A DNA stretch of 64,000 nt from Candidatus Gastranaerophilales bacterium (lineage in GTDB: Bacteria > Cyanobacteriota > Vampirovibrionia > Gastranaerophilales > Gastranaerophilaceae): NCBI GenBank assembly GCA_944322725.1, contig CALUPU010000005.1, positions 1-64,000 of the forward strand, written 5' to 3'. Under the pieces are notes generated by a model, which was not told the origin of the DNA, did no database searches, and worked only from the letters and a program-made list of their open reading frames with translations. The stretch's first letter is position 1. Every line of letters starts with the position of its first letter. Positions 5,801-36,228 of the stretch are shown here, one piece after another. The translations under genes and the position numbers were made by a program.

Positions 5801-6104
5801 CACACAGGATCCTCTTAATGCTATTGAAATCATTCCGGGTATCAGAATTATCGGTAACCTTAAAAACGGATGGATGCCTTATCTGGGTGTTAATATGACT
5901 TGGAACATTATGGACAAAACCAAATTCTATGCGAACGAAGTTGCTCTTAGCCAGCTGTCTGTTAAACCTTATGTAGAATACGGTGTAGGTTTGCAAAAAC
6001 GCTACGGCGACAGATTTACCGGCTTTGGTCAGGCAATGCTTAGAAACGGCGGAAGAAACGGTATTGCGTTTACTCTCGGTTTCAGATGGGCACTCGGTCA
6101 TTAA
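2859..6104 (+). CDS. Pmp-like autotransporter with GGA(I/V)xN repeats and C-terminal beta-barrel
   Basis: A predicted surface autotransporter (type V secretion) of 1081 residues. A Sec signal peptide (Lys-rich N-region, then a hydrophobic core ending ASYA) spans residues 1-~27. The passenger to about residue 700 carries at least twelve GGA(V/I/F)xN/S motifs (GGAVQN, GGAVAN, GGAVFN, GGAIIN, GGAILN, GGAIYN and variants), the pattern of chlamydial polymorphic membrane proteins and of a right-handed beta-helix. The last ~280 residues are rich in alternating aromatic strands and end FRWALGH, as expected of an outer-membrane barrel, although the last residue is His rather than Phe. I chose ATG 2859 because it gives a proper signal peptide; an upstream in-frame TTG at 2763 does not. 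A likely adhesin; ligand unknown. Confidence 0.85.
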   Translation: MRNSKVKIIKKYAVIALAVLFLTTGASYAASTWSEAQNEINNTGSTTFTGDVNNVTDSPLMINRPPVPAGPVTIDGGGHTFTATGTPGSTTNYFINNGPGVDTTITDSHFEGANAGSVDAPVSGGAVQNSGNLTITTTPGSSSNTSFTNNTTEGNGGAVANTGSGTLNIERVDFSDNHSTGSGAQRGWGGAVYSEGTSAAITDSSFSSNTAQNGGGAVFNYAGKMTINGTSFIGNETTNDNSNGGAVVNAAEMEINGSHFENNYSQGVGGAFANAFNSGAEITTTISDTSFINNHSDTGGGAIINTGSATNQVHTLTINGGTIFDGNYVANEAGTTASYAGGAIINETATAGGADAVLNINGTQNNKVTFTNNVAETGGAILNGGSATISNTIFRQNGAKTIATGDLKTTAGGAIYNKTDGVGSAQMNISNTLFDSNTATDKGGAIYNEDGKIVITDSTFVNNSAGATSALPNGGAIYSAASATQGSETTLRATSGHSTVIGNENSVANGTDSIVFAGVAGATAAENKIAVGNFEAAAGGKIDIYSAVSGNTDASSNHLTEVNFNKSSDGNTYKGDVNFKGDASLSNTVANIYDGKVSFAHDRSFDATNILNMYGGTLNLLNGEYGAYQLQAREFNLKGDAGIMLDVDLAGTFSPDGKPGMDGIYKDNFGSITNDGGNTLFVEAMKSLTEAKTDTVKIQFTDADALIEHVQLGNNAGVIEAPINKYKVEQITQPVGGGTAADGTGPGEYFQFTKMGNSDSVLAGPVAAQAAFLLMDNLYRQSFANMDMVTLMTPEQRMAWKMRNKYANAGYHTGVYAPNVIPEERDGFYVRPFTNFENVPLKGGPKVSNVSYGTLIGGDSDLVDLGHGWDGNFSFFGAYHGSHQAYNGVSIWQNGGALGFVGTAYKGNFWTGVTANAGASAAEAHHTFGSEQFPIFMTGAAWKSGYNWGLLNNKLIIQPSYMMSYTFVNVFDYNNAAGVKITQDPLNAIEIIPGIRIIGNLKNGWMPYLGVNMTWNIMDKTKFYANEVALSQLSVKPYVEYGVGLQKRYGDRFTGFGQAMLRNGGRNGIAFTLGFRWALGH

Positions 6105-6140
6105 TAGTTAATAAAACTTAATAAATGTGGTAACCAATAA

Positions 6141-6177
6141 AGAAGGGCTTTTTCAGGATTGAAAAGCCCTCTTTTTT
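6141..6177 (+). terminator. Intrinsic terminator of the autotransporter gene
   Basis: AGGGCTTTT and AAAAGCCCT form a 9-bp stem with an 11-base loop, followed by CTTTTTT. It lies 36 bases after the autotransporter stop codon. Confidence 0.85.
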
Positions 6178-6290
6178 CATGTTTATCATGCTTTTGAGGC
6201 AATTTTTGAAAAGAAAAATTGTTTATTAATGCATAGAGGATTTTACAGAATTTTATTTAGACTATTAGAGGAATAAAGAGGGGATTTACT

Positions 6291-8153
6291 ATGACTATTA
6301 ATTCAACAGATGCAATCAAAGCTTCAAACTCAAATGTTTCAAAGTACGAAAAAGAAATTAGAGAAGAACAAGCTAAGAAAAGAGAAAAGGCAGAAAAGGA
6401 AAAAGTTGCCCGCGAATTAGTTGATAATTTGTCTCAATATACAGAAGCTAAAAGCGTTAAATCTGTACAAAAAGATTTAAAAGCAGCTTTAAAAGAACAA
6501 AAAGAACTTAAAATGATTTCTGAAGAAGAATATAAACAGGCAATGTCTTATGTAAAAAGTAAAGATTTCAAAGAATCTGTAAAAGAAGATATTACATCAG
6601 AATCGAGAACTTATATAGCAGGACTTGCAGGAAAATCTGAAGCTGTTAAAGCTAAAGATATGCAAAAAGAAGTTAAAGCTGAATTAAAAGAACAGTATAA
6701 AAATGGAGAAATTACAGAAGAACAATACAAGCAATACAAACAATATGCGACAAGAACAAACGGCTTTAAAAGATTTTTTGGCAAACAGGAAAATGAAGCT
6801 AATAAATTATACAGAGGCAACGCTGCAGACAATAATGTTGATAAAGTTAGAGCAGAAGGTCCTAAATTTAGCGATGAAATGCAGGCCAAAATAAATGTTG
6901 CAGGCTATACAGTTGATGAATTATATGAAATTTATGAAAATAACGGCGGCGCAGCTGATGGTACAGTAAACTACAGCTGGAAGAAAAAACAGCCCGGTGA
7001 AAGAGATGAAATTCTTACAAAACTAAATGAAAACAAAGGCGGATATAAATTTGACATGAAAGATGTCAAAGAAATCGGTAAAGCACTGGGTTATACTGTT
7101 GAAAAGAAAGTAGACGGCGGTAAAGTTGTCAGAGATGCTGCAAGAGGTCTTTTAATCGGCGCACCCGGTGTAGTTGGAATAGATAATACCGCTACAGCAG
7201 TTGCAGGTAGTGCAACAGCAACTTCTGTACAAAAAGTAGTTCTTCCGATTGGTGCAGCAGTTGGTTTAACTACAGGTGCAGTTGCATCTTCTATTACACA
7301 GGCACACAGAGTCGAAGACAGAGCTATTCCGACAAATGTTCCTGCAAGTGTAAAAACATACGATGAATATGCTAAATATCTGGATGACAATTATGCAACA
7401 GAAAAAGGTGCAGGAATCGGTAAAGATATTGCTAAATTCTATATAGACAAACGTGACGGCAAAACATTACTATTAGATCAAATGAATAAAGATTTGGCTC
7501 AGGCTGCAGGTACAGTTGATGCAGTTGGTACACCTTTGAACTATGAAGAAGCACTCGGACTTTTGAGCGACCTTTCATCAGGCAAAAAGGTTGTTGAACA
7601 GCCTAAAGCGGAGACACCTGAAAAAGAAACATGCGTGATAGAAGTTGTTTCAAAACCTGTACGGGAAAAAGTTGTAACTCCTACAGACTGTTATGAAGTT
7701 CAAAAAGGTGATGACTGGTACAGAGTTGTAATGGGCAAATACAAACCTAAATCTGCAGCAGATGCTAAAGCTCTTGTAAGATACTTAAAAGATGCTTACT
7801 ACGAAGAAAACAAAGAAGAATTGAATAAACTCGGTATCAAATCATCTAAGGGTGCATTCTTCCCGAAAGTCGGTGCAGAGTTATGTGTTCCTTCTGAAAT
7901 TACAATTAACGGTACTAAATACGAATATGATACAACCGCTAAAGTAATAGCAGGAAATAGATTCGGTGATACTGTATCTTACAATGCAATGGCAAATCCT
8001 TTCTATAATATAGTAGATAAAACAAAATATAATGTATCAACTTGTGATGGAACAGTTGCTAAAGGTATTGAAGAAAACCAGGTACAGCCAACAATTGATA
8101 ACATTAAAAAAGATAACTCTAAAAACTGGGAAATTGTCGGCTGGGGTAAATAA
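6291..8153 (+). CDS. Hypothetical protein with SHOCT-like helical repeats and a LysM-like C-terminal region
   Basis: A 620-residue protein. Residues ~10-160 are Lys/Glu-rich helix and contain two copies of a unit ending ISEEEYKQ / ITEEQYKQ, which resembles the short SHOCT helical hairpin. A hydrophobic Gly/Ala/Val stretch at ~285-345 could insert in or cross a membrane. Near residue ~464 the segment YEVQKGDDWYRVV, followed later by PKVGAELCVP, has the start and end signatures of a LysM peptidoglycan-binding domain, with an inserted helical stretch between them. There is no classical signal peptide. ATG 6291 follows AGAGGGGA. Envelope association is inferred from the LysM-like part only. Confidence 0.6.
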   Translation: MTINSTDAIKASNSNVSKYEKEIREEQAKKREKAEKEKVARELVDNLSQYTEAKSVKSVQKDLKAALKEQKELKMISEEEYKQAMSYVKSKDFKESVKEDITSESRTYIAGLAGKSEAVKAKDMQKEVKAELKEQYKNGEITEEQYKQYKQYATRTNGFKRFFGKQENEANKLYRGNAADNNVDKVRAEGPKFSDEMQAKINVAGYTVDELYEIYENNGGAADGTVNYSWKKKQPGERDEILTKLNENKGGYKFDMKDVKEIGKALGYTVEKKVDGGKVVRDAARGLLIGAPGVVGIDNTATAVAGSATATSVQKVVLPIGAAVGLTTGAVASSITQAHRVEDRAIPTNVPASVKTYDEYAKYLDDNYATEKGAGIGKDIAKFYIDKRDGKTLLLDQMNKDLAQAAGTVDAVGTPLNYEEALGLLSDLSSGKKVVEQPKAETPEKETCVIEVVSKPVREKVVTPTDCYEVQKGDDWYRVVMGKYKPKSAADAKALVRYLKDAYYEENKEELNKLGIKSSKGAFFPKVGAELCVPSEITINGTKYEYDTTAKVIAGNRFGDTVSYNAMANPFYNIVDKTKYNVSTCDGTVAKGIEENQVQPTIDNIKKDNSKNWEIVGWGK

Positions 8154-8173
8154 AACCTTAAGCAAGATAATAA

Positions 8174-8209
8174 AAAAAGACCTCAGGTTTTACTACCTGA
8201 GGTCTTTTT
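8174..8209. terminator. Bidirectional intrinsic terminator
   Basis: A near-perfect hairpin, AAAAAGACCTCAGGT with ACCTGAGGTCTTTTT, lies between two convergent genes (stops at 8153 and 8221). The T tract on each strand suits termination from both sides. Confidence 0.9.
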
Positions 8210-8220
8210 ATTTTTAATAT

Positions 8221-10371
8221 TTATGCATTGTATGTATCTCTTGCTGCTGAATTTCTGATCATATCTATTGCATCATAGAAATTGATATCATAAACAGGTT
8301 GATTGTGCATATATGCAGTAGGTGATTCAGGTGTAGTATTTTCAACAAGCTGATTTACAAGTTCTATTAACGCTTTTACCTGACTTTCGGTAGGCGCTTT
8401 CAAACCTTTTATTGCATCAACAATTTGTCCGAGAAGGTTTTCCATGTTTGCAGTATCAATAGAACCGCCGCCTGTAGAGCCGAAGTTTTTATTCTTGATT
8501 ACAGTAGTTAATGTTTCAATCAAACCGTTAGTTTTATCAAGGTTCGGCTGAGTTTTGATGAAGTAGTTTTGTAAATCATCTCCTGTAATTACATTACCCA
8601 GTCTGTTATATATATCATTTAAGATATCTGAGTAATCCGGCATGTTGTATTTAGCAAGGACTTCTTCCAGTTCTGCTTTTGTCAAACCGCCAGTGCCGCC
8701 TTCTTTATCAACAATAGCCTGCAGAAGTGCAATCTGTTCGGTTCTTTGTTGTGAAGCCTGTGCAACTGCTTCTCTAAAGCTGTCAGCATAAGTTTCCATA
8801 GCAGCTTGACTGTCTTTTTGACCGTTTATGACTTCAGTCATTTTATCAATCATCTGATTACCGAATAACTCTGCTTGAGAAGCAAATTTATCAATTTTTC
8901 CGCTGATTTCGTTTGCTGTGTTTCCTAGCGCTTCAACGCCGCCTTTGATGCCTGCAAGTTCATCGAGAATCTGCAGATATGCTTCCATTTTTTCTTCGTG
9001 GTTAGCATTGTTATCATTTTTGATACCTTCAAGCAGAGCAAAAAGTTTTTCTCTTTCTTCAGGGGTTAATGAGCCATTATTGAGGTTGAGGTTTTTAACA
9101 ACAGTTGTTAATGTTTCGATTAAGCCGTTAGTTTTTGTCAAATCAGTTTTGTTAGCTTCTATAATTGCAGTTAACTCGTCGCCTGTAATTTGATTTTTGC
9201 CGATTGCCTGAATTTCTTCAACAAGCTGGTTGTACATTGGTCCAAGCAACTCTTGTAATTCATCTATAGTAAAGAGTTTATCGTTTGCAATCTGTAACTG
9301 AGCAATGATTTGGTCAGATTTGTCGAGTTGTTGAACAAGTAATTTGTTGCTTTCTTCTTGATTTTTAATCACTTGATTCATTTTTCCGTCAATTGAACCG
9401 ACACCTGTCAGAATTTGAGTTAACAAGTCAATTGTTTGATTTTGTTTTTCTTCACCTTGTGTAATCAATGTATTCAACTGATTTGAAATTTCAGGAAGAA
9501 TATCGAGTTTTGAATCAATGCTGCCTAACAATTTGATGATTTCATCGAGTTTTGCTGAATCAGCAGAGCCGCCGTTCATGATTGCATCGATTTTTTCACG
9601 GATATCAACAGATATTTGACCGTTATCTTTGATTGCTTGGTATATGAGGTTCATCATTGTAGTATGTTCTTTATCGTTATTTTTGAACTCACCCATATCA
9701 TTCTGGTAATCACTGTACCATTTAAGAATCAAGTCTTGCAGTTCTTTGTCGTGTTGTCCTGCTGCTTCTCCTAATCTTACTAGGTTCATAAGCCATTGAT
9801 TTTGTTCTGTATTAAGAGCAATCAACTGGTCAAGTTTTTCTGAGTCAGAACCCTGACCATTAATAATTACATCAAGTTTGTTCATAAATTCCTGGTCATT
9901 CTGATTACTTTCTATCATAAGAGACTCAAGCCTGCCTAAAGCAGTATTAATATCAATAACACCACTGTTAATTTGTGTTAATAAAGAAATTATTTCACTA
10001 TTTTGCGCAGACATCTGTTCAATCAAAGCTTTGATTTCTTTGTTTGAAGTATCCAGACTTTGCAAATATTTAATAAGCTGACTGTTTTGTTCAACTACCT
10101 GTGTCAAAAGTTTTTTAATGTCTTCTAATTCTTTGTTATCAGCTATTGCCGTTGCTTCGTTTTGAATGCAGCTTTGCATTGTTGCTGCACCGCCCAGTGC
10201 TATTGTTGCAGCAAGGTAATGAGCGAGAGCTTTGCCTCTGATTTTTTCAAGCATTGTTCTTTGCTGTTCATCCATCTGTGTTCTGTCTTGAGGGATTTGC
10301 AACTCTTTTTCCGGCTTTTTGTCATCAGCTTTTTTTGAGTTAAAGTAATTTTTGATACCATTAATGTCCAT
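8221..10371 (-). CDS. Long coiled-coil protein with N-terminal membrane anchor and internal duplication
   Basis: A 716-residue, Gln/Asn/Leu/Ile-rich protein of unknown family. Residues 1-~48 are polar, then a short hydrophobic segment (~50-65) ends in MQSC, a poor lipobox. The remainder is nearly continuous heptad-type sequence, suggesting a long rod. Two ~40-residue segments are clearly duplicated: one starts ITGDEL and the other ITGDDL, and both contain KTNGLIETLTTV. The start at 10371 has AAAAGGAG at good spacing. Tail-fibre, tape-measure or adhesin-stalk roles come to mind, but no phage or secretion genes are nearby, so this stays a hypothetical, probably surface-tethered rod protein. Confidence 0.6.
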   Translation of the reverse strand: MDINGIKNYFNSKKADDKKPEKELQIPQDRTQMDEQQRTMLEKIRGKALAHYLAATIALGGAATMQSCIQNEATAIADNKELEDIKKLLTQVVEQNSQLIKYLQSLDTSNKEIKALIEQMSAQNSEIISLLTQINSGVIDINTALGRLESLMIESNQNDQEFMNKLDVIINGQGSDSEKLDQLIALNTEQNQWLMNLVRLGEAAGQHDKELQDLILKWYSDYQNDMGEFKNNDKEHTTMMNLIYQAIKDNGQISVDIREKIDAIMNGGSADSAKLDEIIKLLGSIDSKLDILPEISNQLNTLITQGEEKQNQTIDLLTQILTGVGSIDGKMNQVIKNQEESNKLLVQQLDKSDQIIAQLQIANDKLFTIDELQELLGPMYNQLVEEIQAIGKNQITGDELTAIIEANKTDLTKTNGLIETLTTVVKNLNLNNGSLTPEEREKLFALLEGIKNDNNANHEEKMEAYLQILDELAGIKGGVEALGNTANEISGKIDKFASQAELFGNQMIDKMTEVINGQKDSQAAMETYADSFREAVAQASQQRTEQIALLQAIVDKEGGTGGLTKAELEEVLAKYNMPDYSDILNDIYNRLGNVITGDDLQNYFIKTQPNLDKTNGLIETLTTVIKNKNFGSTGGGSIDTANMENLLGQIVDAIKGLKAPTESQVKALIELVNQLVENTTPESPTAYMHNQPVYDINFYDAIDMIRNSAARDTYNA

Positions 10372-10642
10372 TTATATTTGCTCCTTTTCCGGTAATTTGT
10401 ACTTTTAGCAATTTTATAAATCCTGTAAAGAGAAAAAGTTGCGCATGAATTTGCAAAACTTAAAGAAATCTTTACAATTGGGATAGTTAATATACCATAA
10501 AATCAATATCTTCGCTATTTGTATTAATGTTAAGAAATATTAAAGAAGAAGTTTCCTTTCACATTAAATTATATACCCTGTTAAAACTTTTTTTAAACAA
10601 TTATTTAAATTATAATTAATACATATAAGAATGGAGTATTAT

Positions 10643-11416
10643 ATGAAAGTTGTAATTTTAGCAGGCGGACTGGGTACAAGATTGAGCGAGGAGACTGAAC
10701 TTAAGCCCAAACCAATGGTCGAAATAGGCGGTTATCCCATACTCTGGCATATTATGAAGCTGTATTCTCATTACGGCTTTAATGATTTTGTTATATTAAC
10801 AGGTTACAAATCTCATGTAATAAAGGAGTATTTTGTAAATTATTATAACAGATACTCAGATATTACAGTTGATATGAACAGTAATACAGTAGAAATTCAT
10901 AAAACAAGAAACGAGCCGTGGCGTGTGACTATGCTCTATACAGGACAAGATACTCAGACGGGCGGACGAATCAAGCGTGCGCAGAATTATATAGGCAACG
11001 AGCCGTTTTTGTTGACTTACGGTGACGGAGTTTCTGACGTAAATATAGACGAACTTATAAAATGTCATAAATCATCGGGAAAAGTTGCAACAATGACTGC
11101 AGTTCAGCTTTCCGGCAGATTCGGTGCACTGGTGATAAAAGATGATAATATGATTACCTCTTTTATGGAAAAACCAAGAGGTGAGGAGTCGTGGATAAAC
11201 GGCGGGTTCTTTGTATGTGAGAGCAAAATCTTTGATTATATAAAAGATGATGATTCTGTTATATTTGAACGTGAACCTCTTGAAACTCTTGCTATGGATA
11301 ACCAGCTTAATGCATATAAGCATGAAGGATTTTGGAAACCAATGGATAATCTCAGAGACAAGAACGAACTGTGTAAACTCTGGTATGAGCAAAAAGCACC
11401 TTGGAAGGTATGGTAA
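10643..11416 (+). CDS. rfbF: Glucose-1-phosphate cytidylyltransferase
   Basis: Makes CDP-glucose from CTP and glucose-1-phosphate, the first step of CDP-3,6-dideoxyhexose synthesis. The sequence begins MKVVILAGGLGTRLSEET, the nucleotidyltransferase signature, and continues with KPKPMVEIGGYPILWHIMK and later GDGVSDV and W-x-N-G-G-F-F motifs. From ATG 10643 it is 257 residues, the family's usual length. That ATG has GGAG six bases upstream, whereas an in-frame ATG at 10631 has none. It starts a three-gene operon: its stop TAA overlaps the next ATG (TAATG). Confidence 0.95.
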   Translation: MKVVILAGGLGTRLSEETELKPKPMVEIGGYPILWHIMKLYSHYGFNDFVILTGYKSHVIKEYFVNYYNRYSDITVDMNSNTVEIHKTRNEPWRVTMLYTGQDTQTGGRIKRAQNYIGNEPFLLTYGDGVSDVNIDELIKCHKSSGKVATMTAVQLSGRFGALVIKDDNMITSFMEKPRGEESWINGGFFVCESKIFDYIKDDDSVIFEREPLETLAMDNQLNAYKHEGFWKPMDNLRDKNELCKLWYEQKAPWKVW

Positions 11417-21531: not shown

Positions 21532-22140
21532 TTATTTCTTTTTTTCATAGTTTGTGTTTATTGCCTCCAGCCCGCCAAGACGTGCTTTTGCTTCTACTGA
21601 GGCAGGAAGTATGTTTATTGCGTTGCTATAATGTTTGCGTGCTTTTTTTATATCATCTAATTTTTCGTAGCAAATACCGAGTTGGAGATTCGTTTTGTAA
21701 TCATACCTGTATCCGTGACTATATGCCCAGCTGTAAAAGTCTATTGCTTCCATATAGTCTCCGTCTTGAAAGAAAGCTTCTCCAAGATAAAAGCTTACTT
21801 TCGGGTTAACTTCATTAAAGTTGAGAGCTACCATAAGGTCATTTTTTGCATCTCTGATTCTATCCTGATACAGAGCGACTCTTGCTCTGCCAATAAGAGC
21901 GTTAGCGTTTGAAATATCCACTCTTGAAGCCTGATAATAATAGTATTTTGCTGCATTCAGATATCTCTGTCCGTTTGATTTGTCCTGCAGTCTTTCGTAA
22001 TAATCCAGTATTTTATCGCCTTTAACGCAGTATTCATTGGCACTTGACTGCAATGGTGTTTCTCTTGCATTTACACTTGCACATTTCAAACAGGTAAAAA
22101 ATGCAGTAATCATTATAAAAGTCAGTATTATTTTTTTCAT
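21532..22140 (-). CDS. Exported TPR repeat protein
   Basis: A 202-residue protein with a signal peptide (MKKIILTFIMITAFFTCL, with a Cys near residue 20 that could be lipidated). Four to five tetratricopeptide repeats follow, with the W/L/G/Y/A/P pattern (for example ALIGRARVALYQ, SFYLGEAFFQDGDYMEAIDFYSWA). TPRs mediate protein-protein contacts, so a periplasmic scaffold is the reasonable reading. It is divergent from nuoJ across a ~100-bp promoter region. Confidence 0.75.
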   Translation of the reverse strand: MKKIILTFIMITAFFTCLKCASVNARETPLQSSANEYCVKGDKILDYYERLQDKSNGQRYLNAAKYYYYQASRVDISNANALIGRARVALYQDRIRDAKNDLMVALNFNEVNPKVSFYLGEAFFQDGDYMEAIDFYSWAYSHGYRYDYKTNLQLGICYEKLDDIKKARKHYSNAINILPASVEAKARLGGLEAINTNYEKKK

Positions 22141-22237: not shown

Positions 22238-22759
22238 GTGGAGTCTGACGTAGTTTATTTTTATACATTATTTTTTATGATTTTGGGCTCGGCTTTCGGG
22301 GTAATATTTGCCCCTAAAATGTATCTTGCTTTGATTTCTTTGTTCGGTTTAATTTGTTTTTCAGGTTTTCTATATCTGGGGCTGAATGCACGGTATATGG
22401 CTGTTTTTCAATTTATACTCTGCGGAATTTTTTTGACGCTTTATATCTTGATATTGTTAAAGAAAATAGAACGTCTTAATTTAAAGTTAAAACTTGTAAG
22501 TCCTTTTAAAATAATTATTTCAAGCGGTCTTGTCTTTTCTTTCGGCGTAATGTACTGTTTGTTTTTTAATGAAGAGTTTGAAAATTCTCTTTATTCGATA
22601 TTCAATTTTGTCATTGAAAAATCTACTGATAAAATAAATTTTGCAATGCACATATTCCCTCTTCATATTGTTATATTGCTGGTAATTGTTACTGCCGTAA
22701 TATTGAGGATATTTTTGGAACAGCAGACTGTTGTACAGCATAACGAGGAGCAAAAATAA
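22238..22759 (+). CDS. nuoJ: NADH-quinone oxidoreductase subunit J-like protein (divergent)
   Basis: A 173-residue membrane protein with about five hydrophobic helices. Position and partial similarity identify it as NuoJ: the segment LGLNARYMAVFQFILCGIFL lines up with the conserved LLxAEFLA-x-xQVLVYVGA helix of Complex I. The normally conserved Y-V-G-A helix, a flexible element of the proton path, reads L-C-G-I here, and the acidic residue before it is replaced. The start is GTG 22238 with AAGAGG eight bases upstream. The stop overlaps the nuoK ATG (TAATG). No nuoA-I genes are present in the window. Confidence 0.75.
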   Translation: MESDVVYFYTLFFMILGSAFGVIFAPKMYLALISLFGLICFSGFLYLGLNARYMAVFQFILCGIFLTLYILILLKKIERLNLKLKLVSPFKIIISSGLVFSFGVMYCLFFNEEFENSLYSIFNFVIEKSTDKINFAMHIFPLHIVILLVIVTAVILRIFLEQQTVVQHNEEQK

Positions 22760-23082
22760 TGGATGTAATTTTTAATATAGGAATGCTTCATTATCTTGTT
22801 TTGTCACTTTTGCTTTTTATGACAGGATTGTTGGGTGTTTTGATTTCAAGGAATATGCTGCGTACTGTTATGTCTGTATTTTTGATGACAATATCAGTTG
22901 TCATTAATTTTCTTACTTTCGGCTGTTATTGTGACAGGTCGCTGGAAAATGCAAATACAATGTGCGTATTTATACTCATTATAGCTGTTGTGCAGGCTAT
23001 TATTGCTCTTGTTATTCTGTATAAAATATATCGTGCAAACGAGTATCTTGATGCTGAAAAAATCAAAGATAAGGAGAACTGA
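22759..23082 (+). CDS. nuoK: NADH-quinone oxidoreductase subunit K-like protein lacking both channel glutamates
   Basis: A 107-residue, three-helix NuoK/MnhC-type protein. The family signature (G-L-L-G-V-L-I-S-R-N-M-L) is clear at residues ~23-34. In functional NuoK two membrane-buried glutamates, E36 and E72 in E. coli, are required for proton transfer. The aligned residues here are Phe41 and Gln79 (codon CAG at 22993-22995). The length and reading frame are otherwise intact, so this is substitution, not decay by frameshift. It is coupled by overlap to both nuoJ and nuoL. Confidence 0.8.
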   Translation: MDVIFNIGMLHYLVLSLLLFMTGLLGVLISRNMLRTVMSVFLMTISVVINFLTFGCYCDRSLENANTMCVFILIIAVVQAIIALVILYKIYRANEYLDAEKIKDKEN

Positions 23083-24239
23083 TGGAGTTTTTTGTAGAAA
23101 ATATAAACCTTATTCTGTTTTTGCCGGTTATAATGTGCTTTATTATCGGGTTCAACGGATTAATTTCCAATAAAATTGACAAAATAACGCTTTTTGCCGT
23201 CAGTATTTCTTTCTCTTTTATTTCTCTGCTGTTTTGTGCAGCTGCTTTTGACTATTCTGTTGTTCAAAATCTTTCAGTATCCACAAATTTTAGGTGGTTG
23301 TCTTTTGACAGTATAAATTTTTATCTTGGAACTTTTCTTGATAAAACCTCTGTATCTTTTTTGCTCGGTTCGGGAATACTGTGTTTTCTTATACAGAACA
23401 TAGCATTTTTTAAATTCAGAGATGATATAAATTTCCCGAGGCTTTTGTTTTATTTGAACCTGTTTGCACTCGGATTGAACGGTATTTTTATCAGTTCAAA
23501 TATATTTCAGGCATATCTTTTCTGTGAGGTGGCGGGAGCTGCGAGTTATCTTTTGATAGACTTTGATTTTTCAAACAGAGCACAATCAAGAGCTGGTATA
23601 AAATCGTTTATTTTTAACAGAACAGGTGATTTAACACTTCTGTTCTGCGTACTGACAATAATGTATTATGCTGTCGTATACAATCAGCTATCGGATGTAA
23701 ATGCCCTTGCCTTTTCAAATATGGCAAATGTTGCCGCCAGTATAAATTCATTGATGAGCGAGCCTGTTTATATATTTTTCTGTTCTGTTTTGATTTTTGT
23801 TACGGTAATGAAATTCATGCAGGCGTTTATTTATATTACGTTTGAATCAAAACCTAAAGGCGGACTTGCGGAAGTTGTTCTTTATCAAAACAGCTTGCTG
23901 GCTCTTGCCGGTGTATATCTTTTCCTTAGATTCAATCCTTTCTTTTATGCTCTGGGCAGTCAGTGGATATGGACAGTGCTTGTGCTTGCACTTATATTTT
24001 TGGTTATTGGTGTAATTAACAGAATATTTATTCCTGTTTGTAAAATTTTCGGATGGATTGAAAAATACATTGTTGAAACCTTTATCAGTTTTGTAGAACT
24101 TGTTATAAGAGCATTGTCATACTTAAGCGGACGTCTGCAGGGAGGCAATTTTCAATCGTATTTGATTTATTCTGTTACCGGGCTTGTTCTGATTCTTGCC
24201 TTTGTTTTAATTTTTTATGAAATGCTTATAAAAGTATAG
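23082..24239 (+). CDS. nuoL: Internally shortened NuoL-like antiporter subunit
   Basis: A 385-residue membrane protein; NuoL is normally 600 or more residues. Residues 1-~185 align with NuoL, including FCEVAGAASYLLI (E149 at the E144 position) and SFIFNRTGD. Residues ~235-285 match the helix 7-8 region in degenerate form: K244 sits at the K229 position, but the HTWLPDAMEGP and ALIHAATM motifs are lost. The sequence then passes straight to a C-terminal part (LSGRLQGGNFQSY) like the end of NuoL. The helices that carry K342 and K399 are missing. No frameshift remnant is visible. The ATG overlaps the nuoK stop. Confidence 0.78.
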   Translation: MEFFVENINLILFLPVIMCFIIGFNGLISNKIDKITLFAVSISFSFISLLFCAAAFDYSVVQNLSVSTNFRWLSFDSINFYLGTFLDKTSVSFLLGSGILCFLIQNIAFFKFRDDINFPRLLFYLNLFALGLNGIFISSNIFQAYLFCEVAGAASYLLIDFDFSNRAQSRAGIKSFIFNRTGDLTLLFCVLTIMYYAVVYNQLSDVNALAFSNMANVAASINSLMSEPVYIFFCSVLIFVTVMKFMQAFIYITFESKPKGGLAEVVLYQNSLLALAGVYLFLRFNPFFYALGSQWIWTVLVLALIFLVIGVINRIFIPVCKIFGWIEKYIVETFISFVELVIRALSYLSGRLQGGNFQSYLIYSVTGLVLILAFVLIFYEMLIKV

Positions 24240-24257
24240 AAACTATTGGAGAAAATT

Positions 24258-25781
24258 ATGAATTTTTTATCTTTAATATGGCTGATATTTGCACCGATTG
24301 TGGTATCTTTAATCATAATGTTTCCGCGTTTTCCCAATCATCAGGTAAAAGTAAGACGTTTTGCAAAGTGGTTTGCCGGGCTGCATTTTATATATGCTCT
24401 TTTGTTTCTTGCTTTTTTTGATACGAGTATGTTCGGTATGTCATACGAGAAGGAACTTACCTTCTTTGGTATGTCATGGCTTAAGAGTCTGGGTATAAGC
24501 GCAAAGTTTGCGGTAGACGGTATTGCTCTTTTAATGGTGGTTTTGACTACATTTATTGTTCTTATAACTCTGTTTATGAGCAAAATTCATATCCGCTCAA
24601 AGCATAAACTTTATTATTCAATGGTGTTTTTGCTTGAGTCCGCAATATTAGGTATATTTTGCGCTAAAGATATGTTCTTGTTCTTTATTTTCTGGGAGTT
24701 GTCATTGATTCCTGTATATTTCCTTATTTCTCAATGGGGAAACTCCGAGGCAAGGCGTGCTGCCATTAAGTTTACGCTTGTGTCTTTTGCTGCAAATATG
24801 TTTTTGTTCTTCGGTATGCTGATATTGTATTATTATAATTTTGCAGTAAGTAATGTGCTTACGGCAAATATAGAATCATTGAACATGGATGAAAAAATCT
24901 ATCCCGTATGGTTTCAGGTAACGGTTTTTGTTAATTTCTTAATCGGTTTTCTAGTCAGAGTACCTTTTGTGCCGTTTCATAACTGGTATGCGGATGTTCA
25001 GAGCAAATCCGCAGCACCTGTGAATATAATGCTTTCGGGTGTGCTTTTAAATACCGGAGTATACGGGCTTATTCGCTTTAATATGCAGGTTTTTCCTGAG
25101 ATATTCAAGATGTTTGCTCCTGTATTAATGGTATGGGGCATTGCCAATATAATCTATGCGGGAGCTCTGTCTATTGTACAGCCCGGTATTAAAAAGATTG
25201 TGTCTTATGCGCATATTTCGTCTATGGGTTTTGTTATGACAGGACTTGCGTGTCTCAATTCTACGGGGTTTAACGGCGCTGTTTTTATGTCGATTGCCTG
25301 TGCCGTTGTATTCAGTGCTCTGTTTGTAATTATTTCAAGTGTTCAGTTTAGAACCAAAACAACTTATATTACTGCTTTGGGAGGTATAGGTCAGGTTATG
25401 CCCAAATGCATGTACTTTGCGCTTATTATATGTTTTAGCGCTATAGGTGTTCCTTTTTTGATGATGTTTACGCCTAAGCTTATGGTGCTGACCGGAGCAA
25501 TGCTGTCAAACCTTGAACAGCAGTTGATGGTAAAGGTTGCTGCTTTTATCGGGCTTGTCGCAATAGTTGTTTCTGCAGGATATATAATGTACTTTTTCTA
25601 TAAGGTCTTCTGCTCTGTGCTTCTTGAACAGTGGAAAAAAGTCAAAGACCTTTCACCGCAGGAAACTGCTGTTTTATCTGCTTTATGTTTGATAATAATT
25701 TATTTTGGAGTTTATCCGATGAGTATTATTCAAATTTATCAATCTGTTTCTAGTATAATTCTAGATGTAATACAGGTATAA
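24258..25781 (+). CDS. nuoM: NuoM-like antiporter subunit with altered channel residues
   Basis: A 507-residue polytopic membrane protein (about 14 helices) clearly of the NuoM family: FWELSLIPVYFLI, VPFVPFHNWYADV, QPGIKKIVSYAHISSMGF. With E. coli numbering the key residues are E147 (kept, = E144), R234 (K234), N265 (K265) and K407 (E407). The HxWLPDAHxEAP loop is also changed. ATG 24258 has GGAG six bases upstream; I reject the TTG at 24246 that the longer frame would use. Length is full. Proton translocation, if any, must use a modified path. Confidence 0.82.
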   Translation: MNFLSLIWLIFAPIVVSLIIMFPRFPNHQVKVRRFAKWFAGLHFIYALLFLAFFDTSMFGMSYEKELTFFGMSWLKSLGISAKFAVDGIALLMVVLTTFIVLITLFMSKIHIRSKHKLYYSMVFLLESAILGIFCAKDMFLFFIFWELSLIPVYFLISQWGNSEARRAAIKFTLVSFAANMFLFFGMLILYYYNFAVSNVLTANIESLNMDEKIYPVWFQVTVFVNFLIGFLVRVPFVPFHNWYADVQSKSAAPVNIMLSGVLLNTGVYGLIRFNMQVFPEIFKMFAPVLMVWGIANIIYAGALSIVQPGIKKIVSYAHISSMGFVMTGLACLNSTGFNGAVFMSIACAVVFSALFVIISSVQFRTKTTYITALGGIGQVMPKCMYFALIICFSAIGVPFLMMFTPKLMVLTGAMLSNLEQQLMVKVAAFIGLVAIVVSAGYIMYFFYKVFCSVLLEQWKKVKDLSPQETAVLSALCLIIIYFGVYPMSIIQIYQSVSSIILDVIQV

Positions 25782-25803: not shown

Positions 25804-27240
25804 ATGTCTGAAATAGTTGCGGCTTATCTGCCAGAGTTTATAATAATTTTATTTATAATATTTAATTTGACAGCCTCGTTGTTTTTTAGCACATACCTGT
25901 ATAAACTGTCAAAGTGGGTCACTCTGCTCGGAATAGTGCTTGCTATGGCATCGACTCTGTATTTACAGCCTGAAACGTATGCATTCAACAACACTTTTCT
26001 TTCAAATTTTTATACACTGTTTTTCAAAATACTTATATTGATGGGCGGCTTTTTTCTTACTCTGCTGTCGCGAAATATGATAAGAGAAAAGAGAGACAGG
26101 GCGTTTGAGTATTTTAGTGTATTTCTTTCGGGAATTTTGTTTGCAATGTGTGCGCTCAGCGCGGTTGACTTTGTTGGACTGTTTGTTTCGCTGGAAGCAC
26201 TTGGCTTAAGCTGTTATCTTCTTCTTTCATTGAATAAAAATCCTAATGCAAAACAGCTCACCTTCGGCTATCTTGTTCAGGGGGCTGTTGTTTCTGCACT
26301 GTTTTTGACAGGTTTGTCTTTAATATACGGAATGTGTGCTCAATTTGACTTTGAACAAATAGGGCTTTTCCTTGTAAACTCCATGCATTCAGGCTCGCAG
26401 CCTCAGGTGCTTTTGACATTTTCATTGATATTAATGATTTGTACTTTTTTGTTTAAACTCGGTCTGGCTCCGTTTTCAAGCTGGCTTCCGGATACTTTTG
26501 AAGGTGCAAGTTATCCTATAGGTGCATATATGTCCACTATACCAGTCCTGGCTTGCTTTGGAATTTTGTCCAGAATCCTTATGATATTTTTGAATTATAC
26601 CTTTACAATGAAAATAGTTCTTGCTTTTGTTGCTGTTATTACAATCATTTTTGGCTCTCTATCTGCAATAAGACAGGAAAACTTAAAAAGGCTTATGGCT
26701 TATTCCATGAGTGTACAGTCTGGAATAATGCTTCTGGGACTGTGTGTCTTTACGACATATAGTCTTTCAAGTGTTTTGTTTTACCTGTTCTGTTATTTGT
26801 TTGCCAATATAGGTGCTTGGTCAGCGATAATTCTTTTATACAATTCTGCAAAGCTTGAAAAACTTGAGGATTTAAAAGGTATAATTTATCACAGACCTTA
26901 TTATGTAATAGCTTTTACAGTTGTATTGATAGCGCTTGCAGGGCTTGCTCCGACATGCGGATTTGTAGCTAAGCTGTATATTTTTTCAGCGGTTGCCCGT
27001 TCCGGTTTCATTTTCCTGCCGTTTCTTATTATTGCAATGCTTGGGTGCGTAATAATGATTTATGCATACTGGCGTATAATAAGAGCAATGTTCAGACGTA
27101 TAGAAACAGATATTGAAATTGATACGCACGTGATTTCATCAAAATTTATTTTGTATGGCTGTGCGTTATCAACTGTTGCAATCTGTCTTATTGCAGATAG
27201 GTTAATCCAGTTCTGTCAGCTGGTTGCTTATTATATGTGA
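25804..27240 (+). CDS. nuoN: NuoN-like antiporter subunit
   Basis: A 478-residue, ~14-helix protein of the NuoN family and the most conventional of the five. E131 is in FVSLEALGL, K218 is in FLFKLGLAPF (= K217) and K390 is in GFVAKLYIF (= K395). The third channel lysine, K247, is replaced by Val248 in the STIPVLACF segment. GGAGAGAAG precedes the ATG. It ends the nuoJKLMN operon: its stop codon directly abuts that of a convergent hypothetical gene, with no terminator between. Confidence 0.85.
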   Translation: MSEIVAAYLPEFIIILFIIFNLTASLFFSTYLYKLSKWVTLLGIVLAMASTLYLQPETYAFNNTFLSNFYTLFFKILILMGGFFLTLLSRNMIREKRDRAFEYFSVFLSGILFAMCALSAVDFVGLFVSLEALGLSCYLLLSLNKNPNAKQLTFGYLVQGAVVSALFLTGLSLIYGMCAQFDFEQIGLFLVNSMHSGSQPQVLLTFSLILMICTFLFKLGLAPFSSWLPDTFEGASYPIGAYMSTIPVLACFGILSRILMIFLNYTFTMKIVLAFVAVITIIFGSLSAIRQENLKRLMAYSMSVQSGIMLLGLCVFTTYSLSSVLFYLFCYLFANIGAWSAIILLYNSAKLEKLEDLKGIIYHRPYYVIAFTVVLIALAGLAPTCGFVAKLYIFSAVARSGFIFLPFLIIAMLGCVIMIYAYWRIIRAMFRRIETDIEIDTHVISSKFILYGCALSTVAICLIADRLIQFCQLVAYYM

Positions 27241-32056: not shown

Positions 32057-32557
32057 ATGAGCCCACAGACTCAAGCAGGTCTTGACTACTCAAAAGTCGA
32101 TGAAATTTTGTCGTCTTATGAGTACAAAAAGTCAAATTTGATTGCTATTTTGCAAAAAGTACAGGAGGAATTCCGCTATCTTCCTACTGATGTAATGACA
32201 TATATTGGAACAAAAATAGAAGGGCTGTCCCCTGCAACTGTATACGGAGTTGCGACATTTTATGCCCAATTCAGCTTACAGCCAAAGGGCAAATACGAAA
32301 TAAAAGTCTGTGACGGTACTGCTTGTCACGTTAGAGGGTCAATGCCTGTTTTGAACGCTATTCATCAGTGCTTAAAACTGGTGGACGGCAAATTTACAAC
32401 AGAAGACGGTCTGTTCTCTGTAGAAACCGTCAGCTGTCTGGGTGCTTGCGGTCTTGCTCCGGTTGTGGTTGTTAACGGTACTGTATACCCGCAAATGACT
32501 GCCGACGCAATAAAAACCGTAATTGAAACCATAATGGGCGAAGAAAGGGGCAACTAG
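32057..32557 (+). CDS. hydC: NuoE-like [2Fe-2S] subunit of NAD-linked [FeFe] hydrogenase
   Basis: A 166-residue thioredoxin-like ferredoxin subunit of the trimeric HydABC/HndA-type hydrogenase. Helical N-terminal part, then the cluster Cys in CDGTACHVRG and, further on, VSCLGACGLAPV, the NuoE [2Fe-2S] pattern. AAAGGAG lies six bases before the ATG. Its stop directly abuts the start of hydB. This is not Complex I NuoE, because the large subunit two genes on is a hydrogenase rather than NuoG. Confidence 0.92.
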   Translation: MSPQTQAGLDYSKVDEILSSYEYKKSNLIAILQKVQEEFRYLPTDVMTYIGTKIEGLSPATVYGVATFYAQFSLQPKGKYEIKVCDGTACHVRGSMPVLNAIHQCLKLVDGKFTTEDGLFSVETVSCLGACGLAPVVVVNGTVYPQMTADAIKTVIETIMGEERGN

Positions 32558-34414
32558 ATGACTGCGACATTAATAAATATCAAAGGTGAACAGGAAAAAG
32601 TTAAAGAGCAGATTAAAGCACAGGGCTTAAGAGTGCTGGTTTGTGCCGGCACAGGCTGTGTTGCTAACGGCTCGCTAAAGGTTATAGAAAAATTTAAGGA
32701 ACTCGGTGCAAATGTACGTCCTATGACTCATCAGGATAAGGTTACAATTGTGCCGACAGGCTGCCACGGCTTTTGTGAGCAGGGTGTGCTGGTTGTTATC
32801 CCTGATTTGGATGTGACTTATGTAAGAGTAAAACTTGAAGACGTTGAAGAAATCATTGAAAGCCATATAAAAGAAGGCAAACCGGTTGAAAGACTTCTTT
32901 ATGTTGACCCTAAAACACAAGAACACGTATTCAAAAATGAAGAAATCAATTTCTACGCAAAACAAACAAGAACAACTCTTGCAAACTGCGGTGAAATAAA
33001 TGCCGAATCTCTTGATGAAGCACTTGCTGTTGGTGCTTACGAAGCATTGCATAAAGTTTTAGAAAAAGGAAATCCTGATTGGGTTATTGAAGAAATTACA
33101 AAATCAGGGCTTCGCGGCAGAGGCGGCGGCGGTTTCCCTACAGGTATGAAGTGGAAATTCACTGCTGCAAACAAAGGCGGCAAAAGTTATGTTGTTTGTA
33201 ACGGCGATGAAGGCGATCCGGGCGCGTTCATGGACAGAAGTGTTATGGAAGGCGACCCGCACAAACTGCTGGAAGGTATGGCAATTGCCGGCTATGCAAT
33301 TGGTGCAGATGAGGCTTATATCTATGTAAGAGCAGAATACCCTCTTGCAATCCACCGTTTGAGAGTGGCAATTAAAGAAGCAGAAGAAAGAGGTTTCCTA
33401 GGCAAAAATATTATGGGTTCTGATTTCAATTTTGAAATCCATATTAAAGAGGGTGCAGGCGCATTTGTTTGCGGTGAAGAAACAGCTCTTATTGCTTCTA
33501 TTGAAGGCGAAAGAGGTATGCCAAGACCGAAACCGCCGTTTCCTGCAAACAAAGGTTTGTTCGGCCGTCCTACTTTGATTAACAACGTAGAAACCCTTGC
33601 AAACGTTGCTCCGATAATTCTGAAAGGTGCTGACTGGTTCAGTTCTATGGGCACGGAAAAATCAAAAGGCACAAAAACTTTTGCCCTTACTGGCGAAGTT
33701 AATAATACCGGCCTTATTGAAGTACCGATGGGAACAACTTTAAGAGAAATCGTATTCGATATAGGCGGCGGAATCCGCGGCGGTAAGAAATTCAAAGCCG
33801 TACAAATCGGCGGTCCGTCAGGCGGTTGTTTGACAGAGGAACATCTTGACCTACCTATGGATTATGACAATCTTATTGCAGCAGGTGCAATGGTCGGTTC
33901 AGGCGGTCTTGTTGTAATGAACGAAGACACCTGTATTGTTGAAGTTGCAAGGTTTTTTATGAACTTTACACAAAACGAATCCTGCGGAAAATGTGTTCCC
34001 TGCCGCGAAGGCACAAAAAACATGTTAAAAATCTTAGAAAGAATTGTTAAAGGCAAAGGCGAGATGAAAGATATTGAAACTCTCGAAGAGCTTGCTGTTG
34101 CTGTTAAAGACGGTTCGCTTTGCGGGCTTGGAAAAACCGCTCCGAACCCTGTTCTTTCTACGTTGAAATATTTTAAAGATGAGTATATCGCTCACATCAA
34201 GGATAAGAAATGTCCTGCTGGCGTTTGCGAAGCTATGAAAACAATTACAATTGATCCCGAACTTTGCAAAGGTTGTACAAAATGTGCAAGAACCTGCCCT
34301 GTTGGCGCTATTGAAGGAACGGTGAAGAATCCGCACCACATTGATCAGTCAAAATGTATAAAATGCGGCGCTTGCTTCAATGCTTGTCCGTTTAAGGCTA
34401 TACGCCAGTCATAA
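32558..34414 (+). CDS. hydB: NuoF-like NADH/FMN subunit of NAD-linked [FeFe] hydrogenase
   Basis: A 618-residue diaphorase subunit. In order: an N-terminal [2Fe-2S] thioredoxin-like domain (CAGTGCVANG, CHGFCEQG), the FMN/NADH site (GRGGGGFPTGMKW, NGDEGDPGAF, and GAGAFVCGEETALI), the [4Fe-4S] SLBB-linked motif CGKCVPCREGT, and a C-terminal two-[4Fe-4S] ferredoxin (CKGCTKCARTCPVGAI and CIKCGACFNACPFKAI). This is the HydB/HndC architecture, able to pass electrons between NAD(H), ferredoxin and the hydrogenase. The gene begins on the base after the hydC stop. Confidence 0.95.
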   Translation: MTATLINIKGEQEKVKEQIKAQGLRVLVCAGTGCVANGSLKVIEKFKELGANVRPMTHQDKVTIVPTGCHGFCEQGVLVVIPDLDVTYVRVKLEDVEEIIESHIKEGKPVERLLYVDPKTQEHVFKNEEINFYAKQTRTTLANCGEINAESLDEALAVGAYEALHKVLEKGNPDWVIEEITKSGLRGRGGGGFPTGMKWKFTAANKGGKSYVVCNGDEGDPGAFMDRSVMEGDPHKLLEGMAIAGYAIGADEAYIYVRAEYPLAIHRLRVAIKEAEERGFLGKNIMGSDFNFEIHIKEGAGAFVCGEETALIASIEGERGMPRPKPPFPANKGLFGRPTLINNVETLANVAPIILKGADWFSSMGTEKSKGTKTFALTGEVNNTGLIEVPMGTTLREIVFDIGGGIRGGKKFKAVQIGGPSGGCLTEEHLDLPMDYDNLIAAGAMVGSGGLVVMNEDTCIVEVARFFMNFTQNESCGKCVPCREGTKNMLKILERIVKGKGEMKDIETLEELAVAVKDGSLCGLGKTAPNPVLSTLKYFKDEYIAHIKDKKCPAGVCEAMKTITIDPELCKGCTKCARTCPVGAIEGTVKNPHHIDQSKCIKCGACFNACPFKAIRQS

Positions 34415-34443
34415 AATGTGTAAAAAAGAAAGGTAATTTACAA

Positions 34444-36228
34444 ATGAGCGATAAAAAGACATTAATTATTAACGGAAAAGAAGTCGAGTTTACAGACGAA
34501 CCCAATCTTCTTGAAGTAATCAGAAAAGCGGGCTTTAACGTGCCGACATTCTGCTACCGACCTGACCTTACACAGTACGGTGCTTGCAGAATGTGTGTTG
34601 TAGAGGTTGAATACCCTAACGGAAGAACCGTAATTAACTCTTCTTGCACAATGCCGCCCGAGGCAAATATCAAGGTAAAAACAAACACCGAGCGCACACG
34701 CCGTATCAGAAAAACCGTATTGGAACTGCTTCTTGCAAACCACGACAGAGAATGCACAACCTGTGATAAATCAGGCAAATGTGAACTCCAGCAGTATGCA
34801 GAAGAATACGGAATAAAAGACGTATCAAAATACGTACAGCTTCAAAAAGACAGATTCCAGCCGATTGATGACTCAAACCCGTCAATTGTCAGAGATCCGA
34901 ATAAATGCATCCTTTGCGGAGCCTGTGTTAGAGCCTGTGCTGAGTTTCAAGGTCACGCTGTTTTGGGCTTTGCAAACAGAGGTTCAAAAACTGTTGTTCA
35001 GCCTATGGCAGGAAAATCTCTTGCAAGCGTTGACTGCGTATTCTGCGGTCAGTGTCAGGCAGTATGCCCTACAGGTGCATTGACTATCAAAAATGAAGTT
35101 AACCCTGTATGGAATTTAATTACAGACCCGAATACAAAAGTTGTCGCACAGATTGCACCATCAGTGCGTGTTGCAATAGGTGAAGAATTCGGACTTGAGC
35201 CGGGTGAAAACTCAATCAAACTTATCAACGCTGCGTTAAAAGAAATCGGATTTGACCTTGTATTTGATACAAACTTCTCTGCTGACCTTACCATTATGGA
35301 AGAGGCACACGAGTTTGTTGAACGCGTAAGCAAAGGCGAAAACCTTCCGCTGTTCACCTCCTGCTGCCCTGCGTGGGTAAGATACTTAGAAACACAACAC
35401 CCTGATATGTTACACCACTTATCAAGCTGTAAATCACCTCAGGGAATGCTTTCTCGTGTATTGATGGAACTTGTTCCCCAATACTTTGAAGGCTTTACAA
35501 AAGAAAATATGAAAATAGTTTCCATTATGCCATGTACTGCCAAAAAGGTAGAGGCAAAACGCGCCCAATTGAGAAAAGACGACAAGTTTGAAACAGATTT
35601 TGTTCTCACAACTCAGGAACTTGCAAAAATGATTAAGAGTGCAGGCATTGATTTTAAATCACTTGAACCCTCTGAAGGTGACAGCCCGTTTGCTCAATAT
35701 ACCGGAGCAGGCACGATTTTCGGTGCTTCAGGCGGTGTAGCGGAAGCTGCCGTAAGAACAGCTTACGAATTTGTAACGGGCGAGCCCTTGTCAGACCTTG
35801 ATATTAAAGGTATGAGAGGTGTGGACAAAAACCATATATGCAAAGACGTTGAGCTTGATATCAAAGGCACAAAAGTAAAAGTAAGAGTTGTTTCAACATT
35901 AAAAGAAGCTGAAAAATCTATTCAAGAAATTAAAAACGGCACAGCAGACTTCCATATGCTGGAAGTTATGGCGTGTCCCGGCGGATGTATCAACGGCGGC
36001 GGTCAGCCATTAAGCTTTAATGATTCAAAAATCAAAGAAAGAAGAGCACAGGGGCTGTATAAAGAAGACTCAGAACTGCAATACAGACGCTCCAACGACA
36101 ACCCGGATATCAAAAAACTTTACAAAGAGTACCTTGAAGCACCTGGTTCTCATAAAGCGCATGAACTCTTGCATACAGCTTATCAGGACAAGTTTAAAGG
36201 TTCTTATAAAGATGTTGTAAAAAATTAA
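34444..36228 (+). CDS. hydA: [FeFe] hydrogenase catalytic subunit (group A, HydA/HndD type)
   Basis: A 594-residue catalytic subunit that makes H2. In order: [2Fe-2S] ferredoxin domain (CYRPDL, CRMC), His-ligated [4Fe-4S] cluster (HDRECTTCDKSGKC), two [4Fe-4S] clusters (CILCGACVRAC, CVFCGQCQAVC), then the H-cluster motifs L1 TSCCPAW (~310), L2 MPCTAKKVEAKR and L3 EVMACPGGCINGGGQP. The proton-relay segments IMEEAHEF and SPQ are present. It is the third gene of the hydCBA operon with AAAGG upstream. With HydB and HydC it probably forms a bifurcating or NADH-dependent enzyme. Maturases HydEFG are not in the window. Confidence 0.96.
   Translation: MSDKKTLIINGKEVEFTDEPNLLEVIRKAGFNVPTFCYRPDLTQYGACRMCVVEVEYPNGRTVINSSCTMPPEANIKVKTNTERTRRIRKTVLELLLANHDRECTTCDKSGKCELQQYAEEYGIKDVSKYVQLQKDRFQPIDDSNPSIVRDPNKCILCGACVRACAEFQGHAVLGFANRGSKTVVQPMAGKSLASVDCVFCGQCQAVCPTGALTIKNEVNPVWNLITDPNTKVVAQIAPSVRVAIGEEFGLEPGENSIKLINAALKEIGFDLVFDTNFSADLTIMEEAHEFVERVSKGENLPLFTSCCPAWVRYLETQHPDMLHHLSSCKSPQGMLSRVLMELVPQYFEGFTKENMKIVSIMPCTAKKVEAKRAQLRKDDKFETDFVLTTQELAKMIKSAGIDFKSLEPSEGDSPFAQYTGAGTIFGASGGVAEAAVRTAYEFVTGEPLSDLDIKGMRGVDKNHICKDVELDIKGTKVKVRVVSTLKEAEKSIQEIKNGTADFHMLEVMACPGGCINGGGQPLSFNDSKIKERRAQGLYKEDSELQYRRSNDNPDIKKLYKEYLEAPGSHKAHELLHTAYQDKFKGSYKDVVKN

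Follow-up and report, generated by a model that had tools for sequence, protein, structure and literature searches.

A headless nuoJKLMN operon with a shortened NuoL in Candidatus Gastranaerophilales

Introduction

Complex I of the Melainabacteria has been described as an 11-subunit enzyme (PMC3787301), and a nuo phylogeny of the group left metagenome-assembled genomes with fewer than seven nuo genes out of its concatenated tree (PMC8235220). A smaller gene set is on record from the bee-gut symbiont Gilliamella, all 95 genomes of which keep nuoJKLMN, and there the five genes were read as remnants (PMC11325843). The antiporter-like subunits of the membrane arm contain two half-channels, with TM4-8 on the cytoplasm side and TM9-13 on the periplasm side, joined by a Lys or His in TM8; the TM12 loop of one subunit contacts the TM5 Glu of its neighbour, and NuoL or MrpA alone offers a clear route to the periplasm (PMC10212512, PMC7419157). 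Isolated antiporter subunits of normal sequence conduct protons (PMC11496545), and E. coli complex I carrying the NuoM E407K substitution still pumps, with a lowered stoichiometry (PMC9271201).

Here we describe a nuoJKLMN operon in a 64,000-nucleotide stretch of a Candidatus Gastranaerophilales genome (hereafter the window; contig CALUPU010000005.1, positions 1 to 64,000); these bacteria live in the gut and are relatives of the Cyanobacteria. Our main reading, to which we assign a probability of about 0.7, is that these genes are what is left of the 11-subunit complex I and encode a redox-free, non-pumping membrane-arm complex. The literature that we searched contains no report of a half NuoL, a dismantled axis, repeated replacement of NuoM Glu407 by Lys or Arg, or selection data for such an arm, nor any other described headless or half-NuoL arm, Gilliamella being the one five-gene precedent.

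Results

The five genes form a compact row on the + strand, preceded by a divergent gene for a TPR-repeat protein (Table 1). The ATG of nuoL shares one base with the stop codon of nuoK, and its frame remains open for 385 codons. The start of nuoM is a TTG in the window; its relatives begin at the ATG at 24258.

Table 1. Coordinates of the operon, its neighbour and selected NuoL features in the window
Feature	Position	Strand	Description	Basis
TPR-repeat gene	21532..22140	-	Divergent; homologue adjoins nuoA in full operons	
nuoJ	22238..22759	+	173 aa; Tyr59 (E. coli) lost, mostly Cys	
nuoK	22759..23082	+	107 aa; Glu36 to Phe/Leu/Cys, Glu72 to Gln	
nuoL, short form	23082..24239	+	385 aa; TM1-8, 20-residue helix, C-terminal lateral helix/last TM	
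NuoL E149	23526..23528	+	E. coli E144 (TM5); kept in 29/29 species	
NuoL K244	23811..23813	+	E. coli K229 (TM7); kept in 29/29 species	
NuoL Q269	23886..23888	+	E. coli H254 (TM8); His to Gln in 29/29	
NuoL junction	23952..24014	+	Residues 291-311; hydrophobic helix in place of ca. 260 residues (TM9-15, lateral-helix start)	Profile boundaries, hydropathy
nuoM	24246..25781	+	Full length; K234 to R and E407 to K in 29/29, K265 lost	
nuoN	25804..27240	+	Full length; E133, K217 and K395 kept, K247 to Val/Pro, K158 to Gly	

The short NuoL was compared with a profile built from the full-length NuoL of the same order and of E. coli. Residues 1-291 match profile positions 1-292 (175 bits), residues 311-384 match positions 555-628 (47.6 bits), and the two matches are collinear. 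Profile positions 293-554, which correspond to E. coli residues ca. 277-545, are absent in all 21 genomes that encode the short form; the second inverted five-helix repeat (TM9-13) is thus missing, and TM4-8 are present. The hydrophobic helix between the two matches, residues 292-310, is not clearly assigned by the profile and may derive from TM9 or from TM15. The loss of seven helices and the gain of one would preserve the membrane topology of the protein, with which its loop charges agree weakly. Pfam and NCBIfam both assign the short open reading frame to NuoL, with matches that end near residue 310, in the middle of the models. The N-terminal part is homologous to NuoL, NdhF and ND5: its matches to TIGR01974 (E 4.7e-21) and NF005141 (E 1.5e-21) both lie below the full-length cut-offs, and the profile comparison with cyanobacterial NdhF gave 3.7e-28.

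An AlphaFold2 model calculated with the sequences of 29 species as input (pLDDT 76.8, pTM 0.72) matches NuoL, NdhF and ND5 chains, with Foldseek E-values down to 9e-9 and VIA Z scores of 26-29; Mrp chains are also among its structural matches. In the model a long helix spanning residues 295-352 extends into the lateral-helix region, and the last helix (358-384) follows it; confidence is low at 349-358 and modest in the lateral helix. The initial annotation, which had proposed such a prediction, described a NuoL of 385 residues with its middle deleted in frame, in which the N-terminal half up to about helix 8 is followed by a C-terminal tail, the helices carrying K342 and K399 are absent, and the frame is continuous with an overlapping start. 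The collinear matches, the NuoL-like fold and the one-base overlap with nuoK bear this description out: both lysines fall in the missing part, and the refinement needed is the helix that stands between the two remaining portions.

To place the short form among relatives, we used a family sample of 286 genomes from the order. It occurs, with the same length and junction, in 21 of 21 genomes across three genera (g1, g23 and g32). All 16 sampled genomes of g1, the genus of the window, encode a NuoL of 385-387 residues, as does every sampled genome of g23 and g32 that has a match, at 55-74% identity. Genera outside this clade encode full-length NuoL proteins of 575-680 residues. An independent collection of assemblies in several assembler styles, named as Candidatus Gastranaerophilales or as uncultured bacterium, contributed 28 loci, every one with J-K-L(385-387)-M-N and the same junction; together the two sets comprise 29 distinct species. 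Thus, the deletion sought in other Gastranaerophilales is found throughout three genera, and the fixed, compact form that the initial annotation had suggested is common to all 29 species. It had also held that relatives of normal length would count against a fixed form; such relatives do occur, though none within the three genera, which makes the short form a clade character. Every genome is draft or metagenome-assembled, and missing sequence or a frameshift near 23950 might therefore be suspected. Independent copies with an identical junction and length in 29 species, produced by several assemblers, nevertheless exclude an artefact of assembly or annotation, whose chance of being the explanation we put at practically nil, and a collapsed assembly at this point was rejected.

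The short NuoL has no complex I to belong to. Genome-wide searches by family detected NuoA in none of the 21 short-form genomes, 16 of which also had no homologue of NuoB, NuoD or NuoH, and A, B, C, D, H and I are absent from the operon and its neighbourhood, so that neither the quinone module nor the coupling subunits (B, C, D, I, H, A) of respiratory complex I are in place. In the remaining five genomes the NuoB, NuoD and NuoH families are always inside a separate hydrogenase-like cluster that carries its own antiporter subunits, and none of these members is of the complex I type. Exactly three PF00361 proteins are encoded by the 16 genomes without these families, namely the short NuoL, NuoM and NuoN. 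A second NuoL, of full length, elsewhere in the genome was considered and rejected; the only candidates were the HyfB-like and MrpD-like proteins encoded in the separate Ehr-like cluster, which are absent in 16 of the 21 genomes.

Two other loci encode Nuo-like proteins. The Ehr-like cluster of genome G000 (contig C2; positions 3589-10873 of locus L044) encodes NuoB-, NuoD- and NuoH-like proteins and two antiporter-like proteins; its B/D/H set lies at C2:206213-213074, and its large subunit is without the CxxC nickel-iron ligand motif. In the window, genes for a trimeric FeFe-hydrogenase (HydABC) are found at 32057-36228, 5 kb downstream of nuoN, and comprise a NuoE-like protein, a NuoF-like protein (618 aa) and an Fe-only hydrogenase with a NuoG-type N-terminus (594 aa). 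Either locus might be thought to drive the arm as a redox pump with its head in trans, the one by virtue of its B/D/H set and the other through its NuoE/F/G-like subunits. We consider this very unlikely, given that NuoB, NuoD and NuoH homologues are absent in most genomes with JKLMN, that the Ehr-like set brings antiporter subunits of its own, that HydABC does not adjoin the operon in every genome, and that the entry residues of NuoK and NuoJ are lost.

Relatives with a full operon have the order nuoABCDHIJKLMN, and the TPR gene provides a scar of the change. It precedes nuoJ by 52-156 bp in each of the 21 short-form genomes, and in the full-operon relatives its homologue precedes nuoA by 74-216 bp; because the neighbour is the same, nuoABCDHI was removed in place. 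The genus g16 has A-H-J-K-L-M-N with a full-length NuoL and is sister to the short clade in a tree of NuoM and NuoN (support 93). It is an intermediate in a series that leads from the full operon through AHJKLMN to JKLMN with a short NuoL. Seven genomes of another genus, g18, have a headless J-K-L-M-N with a 634-residue NuoL, beside proS (named by eye from its sequence) in at least six of the seven. In genome G153 a complete operon adjoins the same proS gene, a sign that g18 lost the head in a second event of its own. Gene neighbours thus point to at least two separate head losses; the tree by itself leaves both options, since one common origin for the headless arms has an AU p of 0.12. The genus g26 (L065, L066) has a further headless arm, AHJKLMN, in which NuoL is divergent and 575 residues long and nearly every axis charge is gone.

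The residues that form the charged axis have fared differently in full and headless operons. In 22 of 23 genomes with a full operon the axis is nearly whole, with variation only at NuoK E72 and, once, at NuoJ Y59. The one clear exception is G153 (L087), the complete 11-gene operon of which already has a membrane arm without NuoM E144, K265 and E407 and NuoN K247, and a NuoD without the quinone-site motif GPQHPSTHG; this is possibly a case of axis decay ahead of head loss. The short clade has lost NuoK Glu36 and Glu72, NuoJ Tyr59, NuoM Lys265, NuoN Lys247 and NuoL His254, and with them the TM8 charge of L, M and N, so that the central proton axis (NuoK E36/E72 and the TM8 Lys/His of L, M and N) is no longer present. 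All 21 tabulated genomes retain NuoL Glu144 and Lys229, NuoM Glu144 and NuoN Lys395, and nearly all retain NuoN Glu133 and Lys217. Ion pairs at the subunit interfaces are mostly retained; the two TM12 lysines of M and N survive, as do the TM5/TM7 pairs. Every TM8 charge is also lost in g18 (L068, L069, L095-L099), where the TM7 Lys and a TM12 Lys/Arg are kept in L, M and N. NuoM position 407 is Lys or Arg in g18, and Lys in one of the two genomes of g16. Glu72 of NuoK is Gln in several genomes with complete operons (L054, L055, L057, L058) and is therefore not strictly needed there.

We asked whether axis residues were lost preferentially relative to other positions conserved in full operons. 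In the short clade 7 of 13 axis positions were lost, compared with 51 of 191 others (Fisher p = 0.053); in g18 the enrichment fell short of significance (p = 0.27), and for the AHJKLMN group it was significant (p = 0.003). Because targeted loss is only marginal in the short clade, part of its axis loss is general divergence. The initial annotation had described the ALIHAATM helix of NuoL as scrambled; the helix is indeed altered, but by a fixed H254Q substitution in 29 of 29 species rather than by noise. More broadly, it was right about the deletion and the fixed form, but overlooked the loss of A, B, C, D, H and I and of the axis in J, K, M and N.

A return of the headless arm to secondary antiport, as an Mrp-like Na+/H+ antiporter, would fit the homology of L, M/N, K and J to MrpA-N, MrpD, MrpC and MrpA-C (PMC7419157), the Lys that now occupies TM12 of NuoM, as in MrpD, and the Mrp chains recovered by structural comparison. 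The TM8 Lys/His that Mrp keeps is, however, lost in L, M and N, and the half of NuoL that links to the periplasm is deleted, so that an MrpA-N with TM8 and TM12 charges and a periplasmic half-channel is not encoded; no MrpB-, E-, F- or G-like gene was seen in the operon or its neighbourhood. We regard this explanation as rather unlikely.

Selection was assessed from pairs within the short clade, setting aside near-identical pairs, which give lower, uninformative values. The dN/dS ratios were 0.02-0.05 for nuoM and nuoN, 0.04-0.11 for nuoL, 0.05-0.12 for nuoK and 0.05-0.16 for nuoJ, similar to or lower than those in full operons, and NuoM identity to orthologues was 81-88%, compared with 86-92% for the neighbouring radA-like gene. 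Strong purifying selection of this kind shows that nuoJKLMN is in use. A decaying relic, that is, complex I leftovers with no remaining function, would account for the disappearance of the head, of the tip of NuoL and of many charges along the axis, and for the ca. 60% of genomes in the order that have no match to the short NuoL; the same five-gene set was explained in this way for Gilliamella (PMC11325843). Against it stand the constraint on all five genes, which is no weaker than in intact operons, the preservation of open frames, length and gene order in 29 species, the repeated change of E407 to Lys or Arg instead of drift, and the presence of the operon in every sampled genome of g1. We therefore judge a relic to be unlikely.

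Discussion

If nuoJKLMN encodes a redox-free membrane-arm complex, the five remaining proteins most likely still assemble as a slab in the order J/K-N-M-L. Such a slab would be held together by the retained inter-subunit ion clusters, in which a TM12 Lys in one subunit stands opposite the TM5 Glu and the TM7 Lys/Arg of its neighbour. The proton wire, in turn, is cut at its entry (NuoK Glu36/72 and NuoJ Tyr59), in the middle of each antiporter-like subunit at TM8, and at the distal tip, where the deleted periplasm-facing half of NuoL would have offered the only clear exit. The sequences show all three kinds of cut, and from them we infer that redox-driven proton pumping of the familiar type is beyond this complex. 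With the TM12 lysines of M and N and the TM5/TM7 pairs surviving, conduction by water alone may still occur; proton conduction by isolated antiporter subunits and pumping by the E. coli E407K complex likewise count against our reading. Our first choice, a tentative one, is redox-independent ion handling, perhaps a slow or gated path for H+ or cations through the cytoplasm-facing half-channels. A structural or docking scaffold comes second, as a doubtful possibility. For the wider proposal that head loss has repeatedly led to a redox-free J-K-N-M-L complex, with its ion pairs kept, its wire disconnected and NuoM Glu407 changed to Lys or Arg, and in one clade also without the distal half of NuoL, we see roughly even odds.

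These arms constitute a natural experiment on a debated question, namely which membrane-arm residues serve redox-driven pumping and which serve assembly. Once the head is gone, the TM8 and E-channel residues go as well. The interface clusters of TM5, TM7 and TM12 largely persist, and separate lineages have replaced NuoM Glu407 by Lys or Arg. A cut through NuoL close to its internal symmetry boundary evidently leaves a protein that selection retains. A supposed bee-gut remnant thereby becomes a testable system.

The 11-subunit Melainabacteria complex I (PMC3787301, PMC8235220) is the direct ancestor of the arm, with which it shares the bacterial order, the TPR neighbour and the J-K-L-M-N gene order; here A, B, C, D, H and I, the second half of NuoL and the central axis charges are gone. 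Mrp (PMC7419157) is likewise a redox-free relative of the complex I arm with homologous subunits and a TM12 Lys in the middle subunit; our locus, in whose operon and neighbourhood no MrpB/E/F/G-like gene was seen, differs from it in having neither the TM8 Lys/His nor the second half of MrpA/NuoL. The engineered Glu-to-Lys change of E. coli NuoM E407K (PMC9271201) is the one naturally fixed here, although E. coli retains the head and the rest of the axis. The closest match in gene content is with Gilliamella and other Orbaceae (PMC11325843), compared here by published description rather than by sequence: these gut symbionts belong to a distant lineage, the Gammaproteobacteria, and their genes have been called remnants, but like the Gastranaerophilales they have kept exactly J, K, L, M and N and none of the nuo genes that handle NADH or quinone.
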